Positions 4,953-59,434 of a DNA stretch of 64,000 nt are shown here, in pieces. The first letter of the stretch is position 1. Each line of letters starts with the position of its first letter. The notes under the pieces were generated by a model. That model saw nothing but the letters and a program-made list of their open reading frames with translations, ran no database searches and was not told the DNA's origin. Source of the DNA: Favolaschia claudopus (lineage: Eukaryota > Basidiomycota > Agaricomycetes > Agaricales > Mycenaceae); assembly GCA_037176885.1 (NCBI GenBank), contig JAWWNJ010000054.1, positions 372,001 through 436,000 on the forward strand. Direction: 5' to 3'. A program made the position numbers and the translations under genes.

Positions 4953-5910
4953 TCAGGGCGCAGCAGCGGAAGGCACGGCCGCAGCACCTGCGAGGGCGCA
5001 GGAGAAGGAAGGGTGGGCTCCTCCACATCCCCGGCAGACATGGCGGCGCGGGCACGAAGGTGCTTCACAACCCACAGTAGCGTTATTGTAGTTGTAGCAT
5101 ACCTGGGTGCGAGCAGCACTTGCTGGAGCAGGAGAAGGAGCGGGCAGGGTGGGCGGCATAAGGAGGAGGGGAGTGAGGAGGAGCTTGGTGTGCAGATGAG
5201 AGTCACCCCTGCTCCAGGAGATGGGGTTGAAGAAGGGGTCACGACTCCGAGCCTGCACAAAAGCGACGTGGTAGTCCAAGACGGACGCCCACGGAAACGC
5301 GCGCGCGAAGCCGATGATGTTGGTGAGGTGCGCGTTGAGGGCCTGGGCAGCAGGAAGGGCGGGGTTCTCATTCTGAAGCACGGCAGAGAAAATTGCCCAG
5401 GCTTCAGTGAAAGTAGCGACGTCAGGGACTTCGCGGAGCAGGGCGGTGGCGCCGGTGACAGTGGGGACCGGGGTAAACACCAGTCCGCCATCAGCGTTGG
5501 TGGTGAGGACGAGGGGGATGGGCGGTGGGGCAGAGACAGTGGGGAGGAGGCGACCGAGGTGGGTCGGCGGGAACTCGAACTTGCCGATTTGCGTGACGAC
5601 GTCGGCGGCAAGGTGCGGGTAGAGAACAGAGGTAAGCAGGGCCGGGTACTTACCATTAGCAGCGGGCGGGAACGCCAAGGGGTTGGCGGAGGCGCCAGTG
5701 AGCTGCTCGATACACGCTCTTTTTACCTCTTTCTTCAGCTGATGCGACCTTTTTCTGCACTTTCTGGGTACAGGAACCTTGCCTCAAAGTAATTAGATTT
5801 GTTTCCTCCAGATTTTTCACCGTTTCAGGTGAACTCCCAGCGAAATTGGCATCCTCGTCAAATTTTGCGGCGCACCACTGCGTGGAGCTGCCGCTTGACT
5901 AGTAGCAGGG
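4953..5910 (-). pseudogene. Gag-like protein of the YR retrotransposon, one frameshift
   Basis: The 3' part (about 5785-4953) reads ANPLAFPPAANGKYPALL and continues with FTEAWAIFSAVLQNE and FFNPISWSRGD. It ends in a Cys/His cluster (CYNYN..CEAPSCPRRHVC, then CRGCGGAHPSFSC) of the type used for nucleic-acid binding by gag proteins. No ATG opens this frame. A second frame just upstream (about 5870-5705) reads FDEDANFAGSSPETVKNLEE and then LRQGSCTQKVQKKVASAEER, and must be the N-terminal part joined by a one-base shift near 5705. The true start lies near 5910, where a stop or an intron interferes. The frame ends 22 bp before the RT frame. Confidence 0.65.
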
Positions 5911-50341: not shown

Positions 50342-50644
50342 CTGCACTGAGGAAGTAGAACCCCCTGAATTTCCCATAGCCGGACCATGAATTCCACAAT
50401 TCATGGGATTATCTGGTGAATTCAGATTCAGGGGGTTGTAACTTCATGTAGCTCATTCACATAATTATGTTAGGCCAAAACGAACTATGTGAATTTCGCT
50501 TGAAAATTGAATGAATGCAGTTGTGTGAAAACTGCTCAAAAAATTCATTCCTGGCTTCCAGGCGAGTCTTTGAAATTCACCCATGCACCTCGTGGAATTC
50601 ATGGAGATCAAGTTGCCCGGAACACGGTACATGGTTCTGGTCAC

Positions 50645-50681
50645 TAGTCTCGTGACCAGCCTCTCACGACATCCCAAACTG
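50645..50681 (+). repeat. Left TIR of the 8-kb element
   Basis: Begins TAGTCTCGTGACCAGCCTCT and ends CCCAAACTG. Perfect inverse of 58600-58636. A subterminal hairpin follows (CTCTCACGACA paired with TGTCGTGAGAG, at 50662-50700). Confidence 0.9.
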
Positions 50682-50750
50682 GGAACCCTGTCGTGAGAGT
50701 CTGGAACTATCATCGGCCAGGTAACCGTACCCTTGCTCTATCACTTTTGA

Positions 50751-50900
50751 TCTATTTTTCACACGCTAACAGGCCTCTTTCCGACTCTTCCGTGGCTCTT
50801 CGGACTTTTTCGGAGCCCTTCGGAAACCCTTCCCGCACATCCGGCGGAGGGTTCCCACGCTTTGCCTCACCTCTCGGGCGTGTTTCTCGCATGTTTGCGA
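50751..50900 (+). promoter_or_regulatory. Leader/promoter repeat before the helicase gene
   Basis: About 150 bp, nearly identical in inverse orientation to 57396-57544. It includes AACAGGCCTCTTTCCGACTC, a run of TTCGGA words (CTTCGGACTTTTTCGGAGCC) and TTCCCACGCTTTGCCTCACC. It ends about 75 bp before the helicase ATG. Read as a shared promoter or 5' UTR; no core promoter element is certain. Confidence 0.6.
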
Positions 50901-50976
50901 CGAAGTTTTAGCACTTGTCTCTTGCTTTTGTACACCCTCTTTAGACTTTAGCTATCCCAAGTCTCTTAGCCTCCAA

Positions 50977-53900
50977 ATGAGCACCAATTCTCATTCAAAC
51001 AGGTCACACCATGCCCGGTCTTCATCAGCATCAAGTGCTTCTTCTTTTGTATCTACTCCACGCCGCCCAAGTGGTCTTCGGAATGCTTCTACAGATATGG
51101 CATCTCCCGGAAATCCTCTAGCTGTTACTCCATCCGAGAAACAGTATAGAAATGGCTATGAAATTCAACCTAAAGCTTTATCTTTCAGACCATATTCCTT
51201 GAACAGTCCTGGTACTTCCCCTCGGGCTGCCTTTAATCTGTCACAGAATACTCTGCTGAACAAGACTGAAGCTCTTGATCCCTCTCAGTGGAATGAGCTA
51301 GCAGTAGAGGCAGGGCTTTTACCTGAAGGAGCAGAGCTTCGCTCTTTTCAAGTACAAGTTTGCAATCTGGTTTTGATGGGCAGAGGTGACTGTGTCTTGA
51401 TATCAGCCACTGGATCTGGGAAATCTCTTACTTGGACCTTACCTCTGGTTGCACGCGGTGAAGGAATCTCTCTTGTCATTACCCCTTTCACAAGTCTTGG
51501 TTTGGAAGGCGAGATGTTGTATGTTATTCAATTTCAATCCTTGACAAAATTGTGTTGAATTAAATGAGTATCCAGGAGCAAGACAGGAAACATTTCCTCT
51601 AAATTTATATACGCAGAGCAACACAGCGAAGAAGATTATGAAGCTGTGGCCAGAGGCGAAATGACAGTTGCTTATGTCTGCCCAGAAACATTGGAGTCTC
51701 CTGCATTTGCTCGGCTTTTACACTCACAGGCATGGAGAAAAAGATTATCAGCTATATACCTCGATGAAGCACATCTAGTACATCAGGCTCGTGGTTGGCG
51801 GCCGTCATGGATGGTCTGGAGAGACCACGGGGATTGGTAGTGAGCACGTGCACTCTCTCTTTGTCAGCCTCAGAGATTTTTTCTTCCTTCGCCCCCATCT
51901 CCCCCTCCAGCTTTTGGCCTCCGTGGCTTCGTATCTACCTCCGTGGCCTTGCCCTCGTTCTCATACTAGTTTTTGTTGTTTCGCATTGTACACAGCTCTA
52001 GTTCGACGGGCCTGAGGACCTCGCGGGGTTCGGAGGCACTTCTCTCATCCGCTGGCTCCTTGCGGACTTCTGCAGCCCCCAATTCAAGTGGGCTGCTCCG
52101 TGCCCGTTCCACTTGCAACCCTCCACAAGCTCCAGAGGTATGTGAAGCTTGTGGAACGGGCCGTCATCCCCCTCTCCTTCTTTTCGACTCTCTGGCCACA
52201 ATGTTCCCGCCCTTCGCCGTCACTCTCGTATTTCGATCTGGCGGTCTACCACCCGGCTTTCTGTGGAGGGCCTTTGGCGTCCGTGCAAGTATCTCCCCCG
52301 CCTTTCGGCTGGTCGATTGCACTCGCTTCATTGGGCTGCCGAGGCCCTCCCTCTTGTAGGAGCACTGCGGGGCTCATAGTTTAGCCCTTCCGCCAATTTA
52401 TACAGATCTAGTACCTCTCTCTCTCTCTCTCAGAGCGAGCGAGACCAATCCTGGATGGTCTGGAGAGACCACGGGGATTGGTAGTGAGCACGTGCCCTCT
52501 CTCTTTGTCAGCCTCAGAGATTTTTTCTTCCTTCGCCCCCATCTCCCCCTCCAGCTTTTGGCCTCCGTGGCTTCGTATCTACCTCCGTGGCCTTGCCCTC
52601 GTTCTCATACTAGTTTTTGTTGTCCCACCCACCATCCCCAGCTTACTTGTCCCATTTGCGTGTTTGTGTTAGTTAGGCTTATTTAGTTTTTAGCTACACG
52701 GTGGGCTACCGAGGCCCTCCCTCTTGTAGGAGCACTGCGGGGCTCATAGTTTAGCCCTTCCGCCAATTTATACAGATCTAGTACCTCTCTCTCTCTCTCT
52801 CAGAGCGAGCGAGACCAATCCTACTCTCGTATCTACCAGCTTCGGAACATCATTGGAAATGATGTTCCCCTGATTTGTCTTTCTGCCACTTGTCCCGAGG
52901 CTTTTCGTGCCTCGCTTGTAACGTATGCAGGTCTCCACCCAGACTACACTCTCATCAATCTGGTCAATTTCCGTCCTGAATTGTCAACTATTATCATTCC
53001 TATGGAAAACGACATTCAAAGCTTTCTTGATATATATTGCATTCATACTTTCACTGGGCTGTAAACTTGCAGATCTTGTATTTTCTGTGACGATATTGAT
53101 CGGCTGACAGAGATGTTTTGGTGGGCATTTTATCGAGCAGCTTATCTTCAATTGCCTACCCATGTCATTGACATAATTCATTCTGGTCTTTCACCTCGTC
53201 ATCAAGAGCTTGCTTTACAGGACTTTCGAGATGGAAAAACCCTCATACTGCTTGGTACCTCAAAGATCAGTGCTGGAATGAATTTTCCAGGAGTACAACG
53301 TATCCTACAATATGGATGTGAAGGTCTCACTATCCCTGATGTTGGTCAGCGTGGAGGAAGGGGAGGGAGAAAGAAGGGTGAACGTTGTGTTTTGGTGCTC
53401 CTTGTTGAACCTAGCATGCTCAAAGATATAACTGTTGACAATCCCAAAAATCAAGATCCACAAATGATTGAGCTTCTTCAATCAAAGGAATGTGCTGAAA
53501 AGATAATTCAGAGACATCTGGGAAATACGAATAACTGGTATCGGAATGAGTCAATGCCATGCTGCAATAGATGTAACCCAGAATACAAACCTCCCAGACA
53601 GTATAAATGGATTGATGTCAACCCCGCACCCAAATCAGACTATGTTAGTGTGAAGACAACAAAACCTCGAGAGGAAACAATATACAAAAGACTTGTAGAG
53701 TGGAGACTTGATTACTGGAAGAAGTGCTGGAAAGATGACTGGCCAAGTTATGGGCCGAAGTCACTGGTTTCTGATGCTGACTTCCAAGAAATTTCGACTC
53801 ACACTGGAAAGATTATTACATTGGAAGATCTGAGAAATTATACTTCTTCATTGGGCTGCCCTCTCAACTCCCCTTCTCAAACAAATCCACAAGATATGTG

Positions 53901-54061
53901 AAGATCTCAATGTCCTCCCTACTTTACAAGTTGTTGAAACAGCTGAGCTACCTATTGTCTCTGAACCAGTATCTACACGCAAAAGGAAAAGGGCTCCAAC
54001 AGCAAAACTAGAGGAAGGAGAGATGCTCCTGATGGATTTATCATGGTCTACAGATATTTGA
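50977..54061 (+). pseudogene. RecQ-like DNA helicase, interrupted
   Basis: A superfamily-2 helicase with a Ser-rich N-terminal tail. Motif I is ISATGSGKSLTW (Walker A) at about residue 145. An intron near 51525-51570 follows, then motif II LDEAHLVHQ and GWRPSYSRIYQLRN across the insertion point. Motif III is LICLSATCPEAF. The second RecA domain has FCDDIDRLTEMFWW, HSGLSPRHQELALQDFRDGK, TSKISAGMNFPGVQRILQYG and the arginine-finger motif VI QRGGRGGR. This is the RecQ arrangement; RecQ enzymes unwind DNA 3'-5'. A Cys cluster (MPCCNRCNPEYKP) resembles a zinc site. The gene is split by a YR element (51807-52821), and the frame shifts near 53060 and 53860. The stop at 54061 lies 23 bp from the stop of the convergent DUF6589 gene. 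Confidence 0.8.
51807..52821 (+). mobile_element. Internally deleted YR retrotransposon inserted in the helicase gene
   Basis: Order A1 (51807-51978), a 360-bp internal stretch, B1 (about 52337-52452), A2 (52453-about 52706), B2 (about 52707-52821). Joining the flanks (TGGCGGCCGTC / TACTCTCGTATC) restores the helicase frame W-R-P-S-Y-S-R-I with no duplicated target bases, as expected for YR-mediated insertion. It therefore fixes the family's ends: TGGATGGTC... and ...GACCAATCC. Non-coding. Confidence 0.88.
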
Positions 54062-54084
54062 TTACAAAATGTAACTAAGTAGAA

Positions 54085-57000
54085 CTACTCATACTCGTTC
54101 AGTGAATCAATTATGATTGCATCCAATTGTTCAATCAAGGAAATTTGTGGCCGAACATTGTCTTGCTCAAGTTCCTTATCAAACTCTTCATCCAAGCTAT
54201 CCAATCCCAGCTGCTGTATATCAGATTGGTTGAAATTTTCATAGTAGCCTGGTGGTAGCTCATTATCATGACGTTGGCGAGACCGGAGATCGTGCCGCTG
54301 CAAATGCTTTGCATGACCACCTTTAGGGCCAGAAAGGCGATGTAAACCAGTCTGAAAGAGATCCACAACCAGATGGCTGGATGCTTTGCAATTGTCTTTG
54401 GAAAAATCAAGAACATCGGCTTTGCAAAAATGTTCCAGGAGTAAAATGACATCCTCATGCAGCTTGACATCAGTGTGACGTTGGTCTGCATCAAATACAC
54501 CAAGCTCATCAAACATCTTCTCAGTCAACTCTTGAATATGTCCAATCGCTGGAGTAATTCTCTCCAACAAGCCTGGTCGGGCATTGCTTCCGTGTGCATG
54601 GGATTTGATAGATTTGTTGAATTGTTCAACCCGAATATCTGTTTCTTTGAAAGTTCTACGTTTTCCTTGATTGTTCATAAACATGCCCGCACGAAGTATT
54701 TGAGCTGTCTCTGGTGGCCAGTCATGAATTAAGTTGTGTAAGAGCTCCATTAGCTCATTTGCATAGTTGTAGCTCCCTCCAGCATAAAGATAGGTGTCCA
54801 ATATTTCAACATACGCTCTACTCGATCAGGATGCCCAAACTTGATTGCGTCACGCATTTCCCTCATGGTCATAAGGTCATGCATTAGAAGAATTGCATTT
54901 CCGCACTCTGTACTTCCAAGCAAAGACTTTGTCCCCTCAGCTTCGAGTCGATCCACAGAAGGTATAATGTATCTAGAAGCCACCTGAGAACACAAGACAC
55001 GATATGAAGCCTCAATCATTTTTGTCTTCCGGAACTGCTCCACGCTAGATACTCGCAGTTACCAAAAGTAACCGAATTCGGGGTTTTTTCCCAGAAATTA
55101 CGATGGTCAAGGAACTTTGAGCGATGAAGGGTTCATTTATAGCGTGTTTGTTACAACTTTTATGATATAAACTCGGGGTAAGGTATCACACAGTGGCTGA
55201 ATAAATTAATCTTCAAAATACCATTAATTTGGCGGTGTTTGCCTTTTTTAGAACACACTCACCAGGATTTCAGGTGGGTGAGTACCTCAAAAATATATTT
55301 ACTATCTCATGACTTTGTACCTGAGAACTCAGAGTTTGCTGATCCTTCAATGAGGGTACTAAAACAGAGCAAGAAATTGTTGATTTGACACATAAATAAA
55401 CAAACATAGAAAATCAGCACAGGGAAAGCCCAATAACTTCGGCGCGTGTTATGTGCAATAGCATATGACCATCCCCCCCCCTGTCCCACCAGTTGAACCA
55501 ACTGCTAACTGTATTAGCTGGTCGCAAGCGAGGCATTTCTAATTTCGGTTACTTTTGGTAATGCCGAGTATATCCAAGATCACCATTGCAGCTCGCATTA
55601 CAAGTGCACGCAAAATAACATCAAAAAATCTTAGCCAAGCATAGAAATCAACTTTTTTTCAAGTTCAAATTGGGACTATTTGGAAGTTTCGATAACAAGG
55701 TTGCAAGACTGAGAGCATCAAATGCACCTGCAGTTCCCCAGGTATTTCTGCCTATATTCTGAACTTGATTCATTGAAACATGCATGAGACCACTCAGAAT
55801 TGAAATGCTGGCAAGATGGTCAAAGCGATGCTCAGATCGGTCAAGTGCCCTTTGATCTTGAGCTGCGCGATCTCGAGCAGTTGTGAGTCTATCACCAAGT
55901 ACAAAATAATTCTTGTTTTCAAAAACCTCATTGGGAACTTTGAGAACATCGCGAAAGAAGTGGTCAAGAACAATCATGTTGCCTCGAGTTGAAGTCTGCT
56001 CTTGATCGAATGTGGGCAAGAAATATTCTTCAGTCTTCTTAGCTGGAAGCTCGTGTGTTTCGTGAAATGGACCAAGGAGATTGCGATATTCTGATAAGGT
56101 TCCTACTTCCTCAGCCAAAGTATGAGAGACATGTATCGCTGAGTGGTTGAAGAAACAATTTTGATCATCTGCATGGGGCAGTATTTGTTCCAGAGAAATA
56201 TCAGGCTCAAGGTGATGTCTGGTGCCTTTGGTTTGTTCAAAGGTGAGAGGGTCAGATAGTCGAGCAGCATCTGTACCATCAGATCCTGGAGGCAAATCAA
56301 GAACAACCAGGAGAGCAGATACTTGATCATGTACTGCATTTCCATGAGTAGCCGATGTCTCCCAAGCTTTCTCAACCCAGTTGAAGTTATCATAGGGCAA
56401 AAGCCACATTTTAGACAGATCATTAGCAACCCTGCTCGCTAATCGGGTAGCATCTTTGGAGATAGTTGGAACCGCCTTTGTCTGATAGTTGTATGAGAGT
56501 AAGCAATTCATAGCTTGATGCAGATTTGTTTCTCTGCTTCGCAAATTCAAAAGCATGGATGTAATCATTGTTCGGCCCTGCATGGTTAACATTGGACAAA
56601 CATTTGGTTCGTAATAGTAACATTACCGGGTTTCGTTGTTGCCTCTCCAAGTCTGAATCTGGGTTCTGTTTCTGAATCACTGCCTTGAGCAGGGTTTGCA
56701 GATTCGGGGTAACACCCTCGTATACTTGGAGGAGGCGACGAACCGAGAAAGACTTCAAGTGTTCAACTGTGACTGACTGTGATGGAAGCCGTAGTGCAAG
56801 TGCCTCTGCATAGAATGGTCCTTTTCGGGCTGTCTCAGTCAAACAAGTGGCCTCTTTGGCACAAATTTCTCCAGCCTTTGATATAATCCACCCAGTTAAA
56901 GTTGGATCATGACAAGTTTTATCTGTGTATATCAAGTCAAGAAGATGGGTGTAGCCATTTTGCCCTAGATAAGTCTGGGTGAAATTGGTGATTGTGCTGT

Positions 57001-57316
57001 CTTTTGAGGTAAATATCTCTTCAAAAAAAATTCGAAGGGAGTATCGGTTCAATATCCGAATTGCAGATAGCACTTCCTGAGTTTTCTGTATGTTTGAAAG
57101 CTTGGCAGCCCGAGCATTGGCTCCATATTATTAATCTCCATCATTTGAATCATCTGAAGGCCAGTCCTCAAGCATTGCATTTGAAGAGATGTCCCTGTCC
57201 AGCAAGCGAGGGTCAGGAGGACTAGAACGACCACCAATTGTAGAGACTCCATCTTCTTCCCTACTAAAATCATCGGACCCGAGCTCCTGGTATTTAAAGC
57301 GGAGATGAGAAGACAT
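54085..57316 (-). pseudogene. DUF6589-domain protein, possible transposase, inactivated
   Basis: Starts at the ATG at 57316 (MSSHLRFKYQELGSDDFS). Landmarks: ARAAKLSNIQKTQEVLSAIR; TGWIISKAGEICAKEATCL; intron near 56585-56635; LLPYDNFNWVEKAWETSATH; ALLVVLDLPPGSDGTDA; FDQEQTSTRGNMIVLDHFFR; NYFVLGDRLTTARDRAAQDQ; LASISILSGLMHVSMNQVQ; VDFYAWLRFFDVILRALVMR; STECGNAILLMHDLMTMREM; and FKETDIRVEQFNKSIKSHAH. This is the layout of DUF6589, a family greatly expanded in agaricomycetes. Acidic residues in YDNFNW, GDRLTTAR and TECGN are spaced like a DDE/RNase-H-fold transposase; that is inference. It is damaged: two adjacent TAA codons near 57130, frameshifts near 55670 (A-run) and 54790, and a MITE at 55052. 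Confidence 0.7.
55052..55568. mobile_element. TA-site MITE (CTCG..TTACCAAAAGTAACCG) in the DUF6589 gene
   Basis: 517 bp with imperf. TIRs CTCG[C/G].. then TTACCAAAAGTAACCGAA, flanked by TA at 55050-55051 and 55569-55570. The ends resemble those of the CTCGTCATCACAG elements at 25789 and 30032 (both have CTCG and AGTAACCG), so they are probably one superfamily. Removing it rejoins the DUF6589 sequence ...VILDI / YSSVEQFRK.... Confidence 0.85.
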
Positions 57317-57395
57317 GAAGCTAAGAAAAGGACACAAGAAGGTGGTGGGCAAAGATAGATGTTTATATTTAGTATTTACATACATGCACAGTGCG

Positions 57396-57544
57396 CGAAG
57401 ATGCGAGAAATACGCCCGAGAGGTGAGGCAAAGCGTGGGAACCCTCCGCCGGATGTGCGGGAAGGGTTTCCGAAGGGCTCCGAAAAAGTCCGAAGAGCCA
57501 TGGAAGAGTCGGAAAGAGGCCTGTTAGCGTGTGAAAAATAGACG
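57396..57544 (-). promoter_or_regulatory. Leader/promoter repeat before the DUF6589 gene
   Basis: Inverse copy of 50751-50900, lying about 80 bp upstream of the ATG at 57316. The same TTCGGA-word run is present. Only a handful of bases differ (for example CATGGCTCTTC for CGTGGCTCTTC). Confidence 0.6.
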
Positions 57545-57958
57545 TAGGTTTTGTATGCCGGATTCCCGGCCTACAGGTGGGGGAGCTTGCACGAATCCGC
57601 ATTTCAAATTCAAATTCAATGCATGTACACCGTACAGTATGTTAGGTTTACTATGGAAGCAGTAGGATAATTTTAAGACGATTGGACTTTGGCGATGCTG
57701 AAGAGGACTGCGGGAATGTTGATGACTGAATTTGCGAGTTGTGTGTTGGTTGTGCAAGCTCAAGACCTGAAGAAATTCATGAACACAATTGTCTGCATAC
57801 AGTACCTCGCAAATTTGAAGACTACTTATGATTTGACATCTGTTTTATGCATGAAGCGGTAAACTGGATGCAGGCATCGAGATTAGAAGACACTGCCAGA
57901 GCGTTCCATCAACGGAATCAGCACTACATCACTCTGGATCAGGCGGTCTTGTGCTGGT

Positions 57959-58431
57959 TAGTGTTGCCACCGAGTCGAGTGGAGTCGAGTTCGAGTCGGA
58001 ACTCGGTGTCAACTCGATCGCCCTGAGTGGGATCGAGTTGCGACTCGAGTTGACAGCGAGTTCCGCACGACGTTTCCCACCCGCCACCAACCCCTCCACG
58101 GAAATGCCCGGAGTGACGCGTGTGTCGTCATGTCACCGGTACCGCAGTCACAGTTCGTCATCCACCGGAGTTTTCCGACGCAAACTGATATTAGAATGTG
58201 AGCAACTCAAAAGTGAGATTCTGCCCTGAAATTGTAGAGAGAGCAATTGGGCGTGCTAATTTGATAGCTAGTGCGAAAAATTCTCACCTAAATCAGAGAT
58301 TTCCGTTTTGGGTTGTCAACTCGAGTCGGACTTGAGTTGACACTCGGCCGAACTCGAACCGATCGAGTTGACCCTTTTTCGAGTCGAGTCGGATCACGAC
58401 TCGAGTTGGACTCGACTCGGTGGCAACACTA
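57959..58431. mobile_element. hAT-type MITE with GAGTCGAGT repeats
   Basis: 473 bp, TIR TAGTGTTGCCACCGAGTCGA.., 8-bp TSD GTGCTGGT (57951-57958 and 58432-58439). Subterminal CGAGTCGAGT repeats on both sides. It lies in the right arm of the 8-kb element. Different subfamily from the 37316/49338 MITEs, although the first ten bases agree. Confidence 0.9.
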
Positions 58432-58599
58432 GTGCTGGTCCCTGCTGGATCACAGACCATCAGTGATATCAGTATCGGGACATGTTCTCATCACGGCACA
58501 TGCTGATTTACGATACCCATCAACGCTTCAGCACAGCCTCATCACCATTTGGTGTCGGCTCTGACAAAAGGGGGAGCAAGCTCCCCCAATCAAAAGTGA

Positions 58600-58636
58600 C
58601 AGTTTGGGATGTCGTGAGAGGCTGGTCACGAGACTA
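58600..58636 (-). repeat. Right TIR of the 8-kb element
   Basis: Perfect inverse of 50645-50681. Just inside it is a palindrome GGGGGAGCAAGCTCCCCC (about 58569-58587), also found near 9396. Confidence 0.9.
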
Positions 58637-59434
58637 TCTGGTCACCAGTACTGGTTGTGTTCCTAATGCAGTAACATACTTAGTCAATTTGGATAGTTTA
58701 AGCAATGTAGCTTAATAGTTGTTAGTGAAGACTTGTAAATCTGCAGTATTAGTACCTCAGTACAGATGAAGTGTAACCAATACTTGTGGGTTTGATAGTG
58801 GGCAAAGCGAGGAGTGAGTAATAGATTTTTCATGCAGTTTCCATTGTGTTTTCACATACTTTTCAAGTGAATTCCCGGAGCATTTGGAAGGGAATCCAAC
58901 ACAGTGAAAAAAGTTTTCATTGGAATATGTGGTGGATATCATTCTAAAACCATGTGAATTAACACCATGGAATGTCCCATTCACATAGTTGGACCCAGTG
59001 AAAATATCTCCGTGAAATTCACAACTTCATAGTTTTTCAGTGAATTTCCCATTAAAACCTTGTGAACCGACTATGGGAAAGTCAGGGGGTTCGGAAACCA
59101 CAGTGTTGTTTCAGAATCTCGTCGGAAGGCTCTTTTGACAGATGTGAGTGAATTGAGAAAAATCTAGAGCGAGGCAGCCTACTTGTTTGAGATCTGTAAC
59201 CATTTTTACCCGTCGGATTGGGCATTTGGTTATAAGTTGTTTTGGAGATAGAGGTAAAACCAGCGCTCGCGGTTATATACTAGCTGCCAAGGCAAACACT
59301 ACCACTGCCAAGCTGGTCCGTTCGCAAATTTCGATTATAAAAAGACCAAGCAGCGATTATTCCAACCCAGTGTGCTTTCGGTCAACCTCATACACTCTTT
59401 CATCCATTTTCTTTGGCTCTTCTCTCATTCATAC

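Follow-up and report, generated by a model that had tools for sequence, protein, structure and literature searches.

AcademH is said, following Kojima in 2020, to be a lineage of the Academ superfamily. AcademH elements are described as DNA transposons that carry a helicase and generate target site duplications (TSDs) of 9 or 10 bp (PMC10045372); they were reported in Basidiomycota, fungal Academ copies with DEAD and recQ_fam domains were described, and putative non-autonomous Academ elements were reported in another agaric, Marasmius oreades (PMC8290104). KolobokH is a fungal DNA transposon with a RecQ helicase (PMC9587614), and MuDR combines two convergent genes with terminal inverted repeats (TIRs) of about 215-220 bp that hold the promoters (PMC3440606) and with 9-bp TSDs (PMC3276141); further literature consulted comprises PMC10799480, PMC4289320, PMC12210899, PMC6416283 and PMC12730594. 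Here we consider an element at positions 50645-58636 of a 64,000-nucleotide stretch (the window) of contig JAWWNJ010000054.1 (C54) from the 264.6-Mb genome of Favolaschia claudopus, in which a RecQ-like helicase gene faces a gene for a DUF6589 protein (PF20231). We propose that it belongs to a family of two-gene, TIR-bounded DNA transposons with 9-bp TSDs, most likely of the AcademH kind, in which DUF6589 is the predicted DDE transposase and the helicase likely assists. At the level of sequence, the family displays a symmetric structure, TSDs, empty sites and short copies with the same ends.

The window element and its relatives in the genome

The first-pass annotation of the window had described an 8-kb element with perfect 37-bp TIRs, a 9-bp TSD and two convergent genes in its interior. 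The TSD, TCTGGTCAC, is present at both flanks (Table 1), and the inverted arms of 37 nt (50645-50681 and 58600-58636) are perfect; these arms are, however, only a remnant of a 248-bp TIR, which is perfect in four full-length copies (L041, L042, L046 and L047) and of which the left end of the window copy has kept the whole. Likewise, a bounded element does lie at these positions, but the full-length copies measure about 5.5 kb, and the window copy, which is closest to L047 (97.7-99.6% identity over the long alignment blocks) and contains foreign DNA at three places, reaches 8 kb only because of these inserts. Comparison with the full-length copies identifies both the 37-bp TIR and the 8-kb length as products of decay. 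The helicase and DUF6589 genes are convergent, as described, but both are broken here by foreign DNA, and the window copy is an old, disabled element.

Table 1. Features of the element and its target site, in window positions
Feature	Position	Strand	Basis or remark
Left TSD copy, TCTGGTCAC	50636-50644		Identical to 58637-58645; empty sites
Left TIR, all 248 bp kept	50645-50892	+	L041 TIR 5289-5536 aligns 100% with element nt 1-248
Palindrome inside left end	50656-50704 (arms 50656-50671 and 50689-50704)	+	Inverted-repeat match
RecQ-like SF2 helicase gene, pseudogene here	50977-54061	+	ATG at element nt 333; tblastn, Pfam
Foreign internally repeated DNA, about 1 kb, breaking the helicase gene	51807-52820		Direct repeats, tblastn gap
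DUF6589 gene, predicted DDE transposase, pseudogene here	54085-57316	-	PF20231 in three ORFs; tblastn against P0001; ATG located
Nested MITE inside the DUF6589 gene	55049-55571		Inverted repeat; 40 listed genomic places
Right TIR remnant, about nt 107-255 of the end	57394-57542	-	L041 107-255 aligns with element 6898-6750
Foreign stretch splitting the right TIR	57543-58599		Contains MITE-like TIR pair 57959-58431
Right TIR remnant, outer 37 nt	58600-58636	-	Inverted-repeat match; 248 nt in full-length copies
Right TSD copy, TCTGGTCAC	58637-58645		Identical to left copy
ORF, open reading frame; MITE, miniature inverted-repeat transposable element; SF2, superfamily 2.

When the flanks were joined into a 600-nt sequence, 31 of the 44 matches listed covered positions 1-600 in one alignment, at 91-98% identity. 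Read at the level of alignments, with junctions not inspected base by base, these 31 full-span matches are empty target sites; thus, the window element was inserted in a dispersed repeat, other copies of which lack it. The TSD at 50636-50644 has 8 nt in common with the element's own TIR. At C331:42015-46934 there is a second copy with the window's nested MITE, possibly the other haplotype of the window insertion.

The other copies of the 37-bp end, which the first-pass annotation had advised looking for, proved numerous: with up to 3 mismatches allowed, the genome yielded 95 occurrences and the reversed control 0. Sixty-six of these occurrences form 33 pairs (32 fetched and the window element), and the 29 unpaired ones were left out of the TSD count. 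The TSD measured 9 bp in 26 of the 33 pairs, 10 bp in one and 8 bp in two, and was absent from four; after collapsing copies with the same flanks, 9 or 10 bp was found in 21 of 25 insertions, 8 bp in one and none in three, among them L056, whose flanks agree at 8 of 9 bases. Next to the full-length copies, the family includes non-autonomous ones, namely a group of about 890 bp and copies of 89-96 bp that hold little beyond the two ends; among the latter, a 9-bp TSD was present in L057/L065 and L060 and absent from L059. A minimal end of 53 nt was considered, as L040, L045, L048, L049 and L069 break just past the end palindrome; however, L057 and L060 have one end of only 42-45 nt and yet possess TSDs, and the strict minimum was therefore dropped.

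In all four full-length copies both ATGs lie at nt 333, that of the helicase counted from one end and that of DUF6589 from the other. L041 has open frames for both genes, the stop codons of which are separated by 23 nt; in L046, DUF6589 contains a stop codon and the helicase frame is broken. L041 and L042, which are identical and lie about 9 kb apart on contig C7 with the same flanks, are a segmental duplication; L046 and L047, which have common flanks in opposite orientation, are likely two haplotypes or an assembly duplicate. Between L041 and L047 the TIRs are 100% identical and the interiors 95.5%.

The two proteins and the linkage of their genes

The helicase contains DEAD (PF00270) and Helicase_C (PF00271) domains, and only helicase domains were found in it. 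In the window, the L041 helicase was matched by tblastn at 50977-51519, 51577-51810, 52819-53865 and 53843-54058, PF00270 scoring 25.7 bits (just below the cut-off of 26) and PF00271 45.1 bits (above its cut-off). For the Mycena relatives P0122 and P0126, the top-ranking NCBIfam models were those of the RecQ family, with scores under the cut-offs that define true RecQ; the best PDB match of P0122 was RecQ, and neither an RQC nor an HRDC domain was found in P0122, P0126 or exon 2 of L041. By its domains and the closest matches of its relatives, the protein is a helicase of the RecQ-like SF2 type.

For DUF6589, predicted structures have an RNase-H core and the fold of DDE transposases in two clades (P0001 and the clade-2 protein P0230), which agrees with the assignment made in the first-pass annotation. 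The best structural matches of both clades were the hAT (Hermes) and P element transposases, which ranked above ISCth4, also among the matches; Foldseek results, too weak alone, were read together with VIA-align. No sequence match to hAT or the P element was found. Among the acidic residues checked, D314, D480, E686, E689, D725 and E729 were invariant. The alignments comprised 69 of the 120 rows listed (A1), 45 sequences (A2) and 51 (A3), and the predicted structures and alignments together place the invariant D314, D480 and E729 on the RNase-H core in DDE-type order. We therefore regard DUF6589 as a predicted DDE transposase with the triad D314, D480 and E729. The glutamate of TECGN (E635), proposed previously as the third catalytic residue, was discarded, being E in only 17 of the 67 proteins with a residue there and L in P0230. 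Thus, of the earlier view of DUF6589 as a transposase assisted by the helicase, the single two-gene transposon and the predicted DDE fold have held, but not this member of the triad.

In Pfam, at E up to 1, P0001 matched only DUF6589, with no MULE transposase domain found. No relative was obtained when viral contigs were searched with P0001, and in a search for non-fungal DUF6589 with a clade-2 query every named row in the best 120 of 235 matches was agaricomycete. In the literature searched there was no mention of DUF6589 and no use of PF20231 for the family.

One could suppose instead that the enzyme of mobility is the helicase, with DUF6589 as an accessory or regulator, as in a Helitron-like or telomere-linked RecQ element. 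Helitrons carry helicases, RecQ helicases were described in subtelomeric elements of fungi (PMC4522978), and the CPA element of Tolypocladium inflatum is reported as a fungal element with a RecQ helicase-like gene. We consider such a mechanism very improbable, as only helicase domains were found in the helicase protein and the models of both DUF6589 clades have DDE transposases as their structural matches. Helitrons, moreover, have no TIR and no TSD and use an HUH nuclease, in contrast to the TIRs and 9-bp TSDs found here, and no HUH domain was present among the eight window ORFs scanned.

The two genes were found together far more often than expected by chance. The genome holds more than 100 DUF6589 matches; its counts are lower bounds, because 102 of 601 DUF6589 candidates were scored. 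Forty-nine of the 102 DUF6589 clusters lie within 8 kb of a helicase match (40 convergent, 9 divergent and 0 tandem), whereas 0-3 linked clusters were left once the helicases had been displaced by 30, 50 or 100 kb in either direction; this count used 36 of the 87 rows of one helicase search and 150 of the 153 matches of a further search. The remaining 53 clusters had no helicase match within 8 kb, a minority of the loci having been fetched. In a separate count with all 87 helicase rows, 31 of 61 helicase clusters were near DUF6589.

Judged by the names of the organisms, DUF6589 and helicase proteins occur in Basidiomycota such as Favolaschia, Mycena, Pholiota and Irpex, among others. Of 86 helicase rows in the protein database, 32 have a longest contig exactly as long as that of one of 119 DUF6589 rows, compared with 0-1 pairs after length shifts of 1-3; equal size is a proxy for the same contig, not a sequence check. 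The pairs include Mycena, Pholiota and Irpex, and seven are on contigs of 4.1-5.6 kb. The rows were 119 of the 120 listed for DUF6589 (one had no contig) and 86 of 109 for the helicase, 23 weak and mostly bacterial RecQ-like ones having been dropped. Co-occurrence of the two genes, part of what the first-pass annotation wished to see examined, is accordingly supported in the genome directly and in other agaricomycetes by equal contig size.

This recurrence bears on the view that the element is non-autonomous, moved by an unrelated transposase, and captured two host genes. The window copy alone would fit it, because its genes are broken. However, many diverged families in the genome contain the gene pair, which also occurs in other species as judged by equal contig size, and lies within a second TIR family with a TSD. 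Furthermore, a Pfam scan (E up to 0.01) of 10 ORFs in four other long copies with the same TIR (L039, L040, L044 and L045) gave no match, so that the known transposase which would have contradicted the original proposal was not encountered there. Gene capture is thus hardly credible.

As separate observations, helicase and DUF6589 matches recur at C24:1474328-1486891 with a period of 5970 bp, likely as a tandem array of elements. On C84, at about 154-382 kb, one and the same piece of the helicase (residues 61-149, with 87-90% identity) is present at seven places or more, which represents an amplified fragment, with no DUF6589 match on C84 among those scored.

As to the inserted DNA, the stretch breaking the helicase gene is built of direct repeats in two pairs, one of 175 nt and one of 121 nt (99%), with a CT-rich run, and resembles a nested or tandem non-autonomous element. 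The MITE in the DUF6589 gene has 28-nt inverted ends and occurs, with 91-100% identity, at a minimum of 40 places in the genome including that in the window; similar ends are also present in L079 (7288-8768). The MITE-like element at 57959-58431 has a perfect 22-nt TIR and is very rich in GAGTCGAGT-like repeats. An Rfam scan of the window at gathering thresholds gave no match.

Palindromic ends and a possible mechanism

In the second TIR family, represented by L080 on contig C5, both genes lie between perfect inverted arms of 187 bp with the terminus TAGTCTCGT and the TSD CTCACGACA. Identity is 47% in the helicase main exon and 54% over residues 231-874 of DUF6589, and this inner element is nested in a second TIR element with its own 9-bp TSD. 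A copy on C20 has a TIR of this type as well, in the form of an almost identical inverted stretch of about 170 nt, but no TSD; in L079, of clade 2, a TIR was looked for and none was found.

The ends are palindromic: for the left ends of L041, L068 and the L080 inner element, and for both ends of the L080 outer element, none of 200 shuffles reached the observed score. Relative to the window family, the L080 inner palindrome differs by three double changes that leave 11 of 11 arm pairs complementary, and that of C20 by one double change and one broken pair; the two ends of the L080 outer element are one double change apart. These changes suggest that the palindrome is maintained, serving either as a pair of inverted sites for the transposase or as a structure. 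The L080 TSD (1496-1504) is identical to one arm of the end palindrome in the window family, the remaining TSDs having been compared by eye only; this likeness, and that of the window TSD to its own TIR, may be due to chance or to a preference for targets that resemble the element.

In the mechanism that we propose, both genes would be driven by a promoter in the TIR, an arrangement found in MuDR, and the helicase and DUF6589 would hence be co-expressed. DUF6589 would bind the palindromic ends, cut them and join them to the target with a 9-bp stagger, that is, by cut-and-paste, and the helicase may unwind both these ends and the strand-transfer junction, allowing cleavage and gap filling to be completed. 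Copies keeping only the ends (89-96 bp and about 890 bp) would be moved in trans. The TSD difference between AcademH and AcademX seems to be tied to their helicase and nuclease (PMC10045372), a remark that fits a helicase acting at insertion. It is also conceivable, though improbable, that the DUF6589/RecQ elements form a lineage of their own, MuDR-like and mirror-symmetric, with DUF6589 as its transposase and with maintained palindromic ends opened by an obligatory helicase of their own.

Relation to known transposons and significance

The likeness to AcademH, which was compared by description only, lies in the helicase (RecQ-like SF2 by PF00270 and PF00271), in the TSD (9 or 10 bp in 27 of 33 pairs and 21 of 25 insertions, and 9 bp in the second family) and in the occurrence in Basidiomycota; no difference emerged among these traits. 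DUF6589 resembles transposases in the general DDE fold, and we infer that it would be the AcademH transposase. Such helicase transposons have likely been described already, as AcademH. Hence the suggestion of a new type of DNA transposon with a helicase as partner was not borne out: AcademH and KolobokH were described before, and fungal Academ copies are reported with the DEAD and recQ_fam domains mentioned above. Kolobok elements have a TTAA TSD, which differs from the 9-bp TSDs found here. KolobokH shares with our elements a RecQ helicase in a fungal DNA transposon, but its helicase lies downstream of the transposase domain (PMC9587614), whereas here it is a separate convergent gene. The P element has an 8-bp TSD. 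Despite the top structural matches of both DUF6589 clades, hAT elements differ in their usual TSD of 8 bp, found here in two of 33 pairs.

A further alternative is that these elements are not Academ but a separate MuDR-like lineage, with long promoter-bearing TIRs, a convergent transposase and partner gene and a 9-bp TSD, which gained its RecQ-like helicase independently. We regard this as unlikely. The full-length copies do match the MuDR layout in their two convergent genes, long TIRs and 9-bp TSD; ISCth4 is among the structural matches, and E729 of clade 1 stands in a DxxxExxN context, which we take to resemble the MULE/IS256 motif. Repeated gain of RecQ by fungal transposons is suggested by KolobokH (PMC9587614). 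On the other hand, no MULE domain was found in P0001 in Pfam at E up to 1, Hermes and the P element outrank ISCth4, N732 of the DxxxExxN context is not kept in clade 2, and AcademH already fits in TSD, helicase and host range.

The assignment of a function, that of a predicted DDE transposase, to PF20231/DUF6589 concerns a family that is expanded in mushrooms and annotated as of unknown function; its members, and the linked RecQ-like helicases, can be miscounted as host genes. The full-length copies, derivatives down to 89-96 bp, empty sites and predicted catalytic triad make the role of a helicase in a cut-and-paste transposon directly testable. Should the elements prove to be a lineage of their own, the helicase would be an obligatory part of the cut-and-paste machine, and not an accessory. 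They are a real, well-supported transposon family with a newly assigned predicted transposase, and most likely belong to a known kind.

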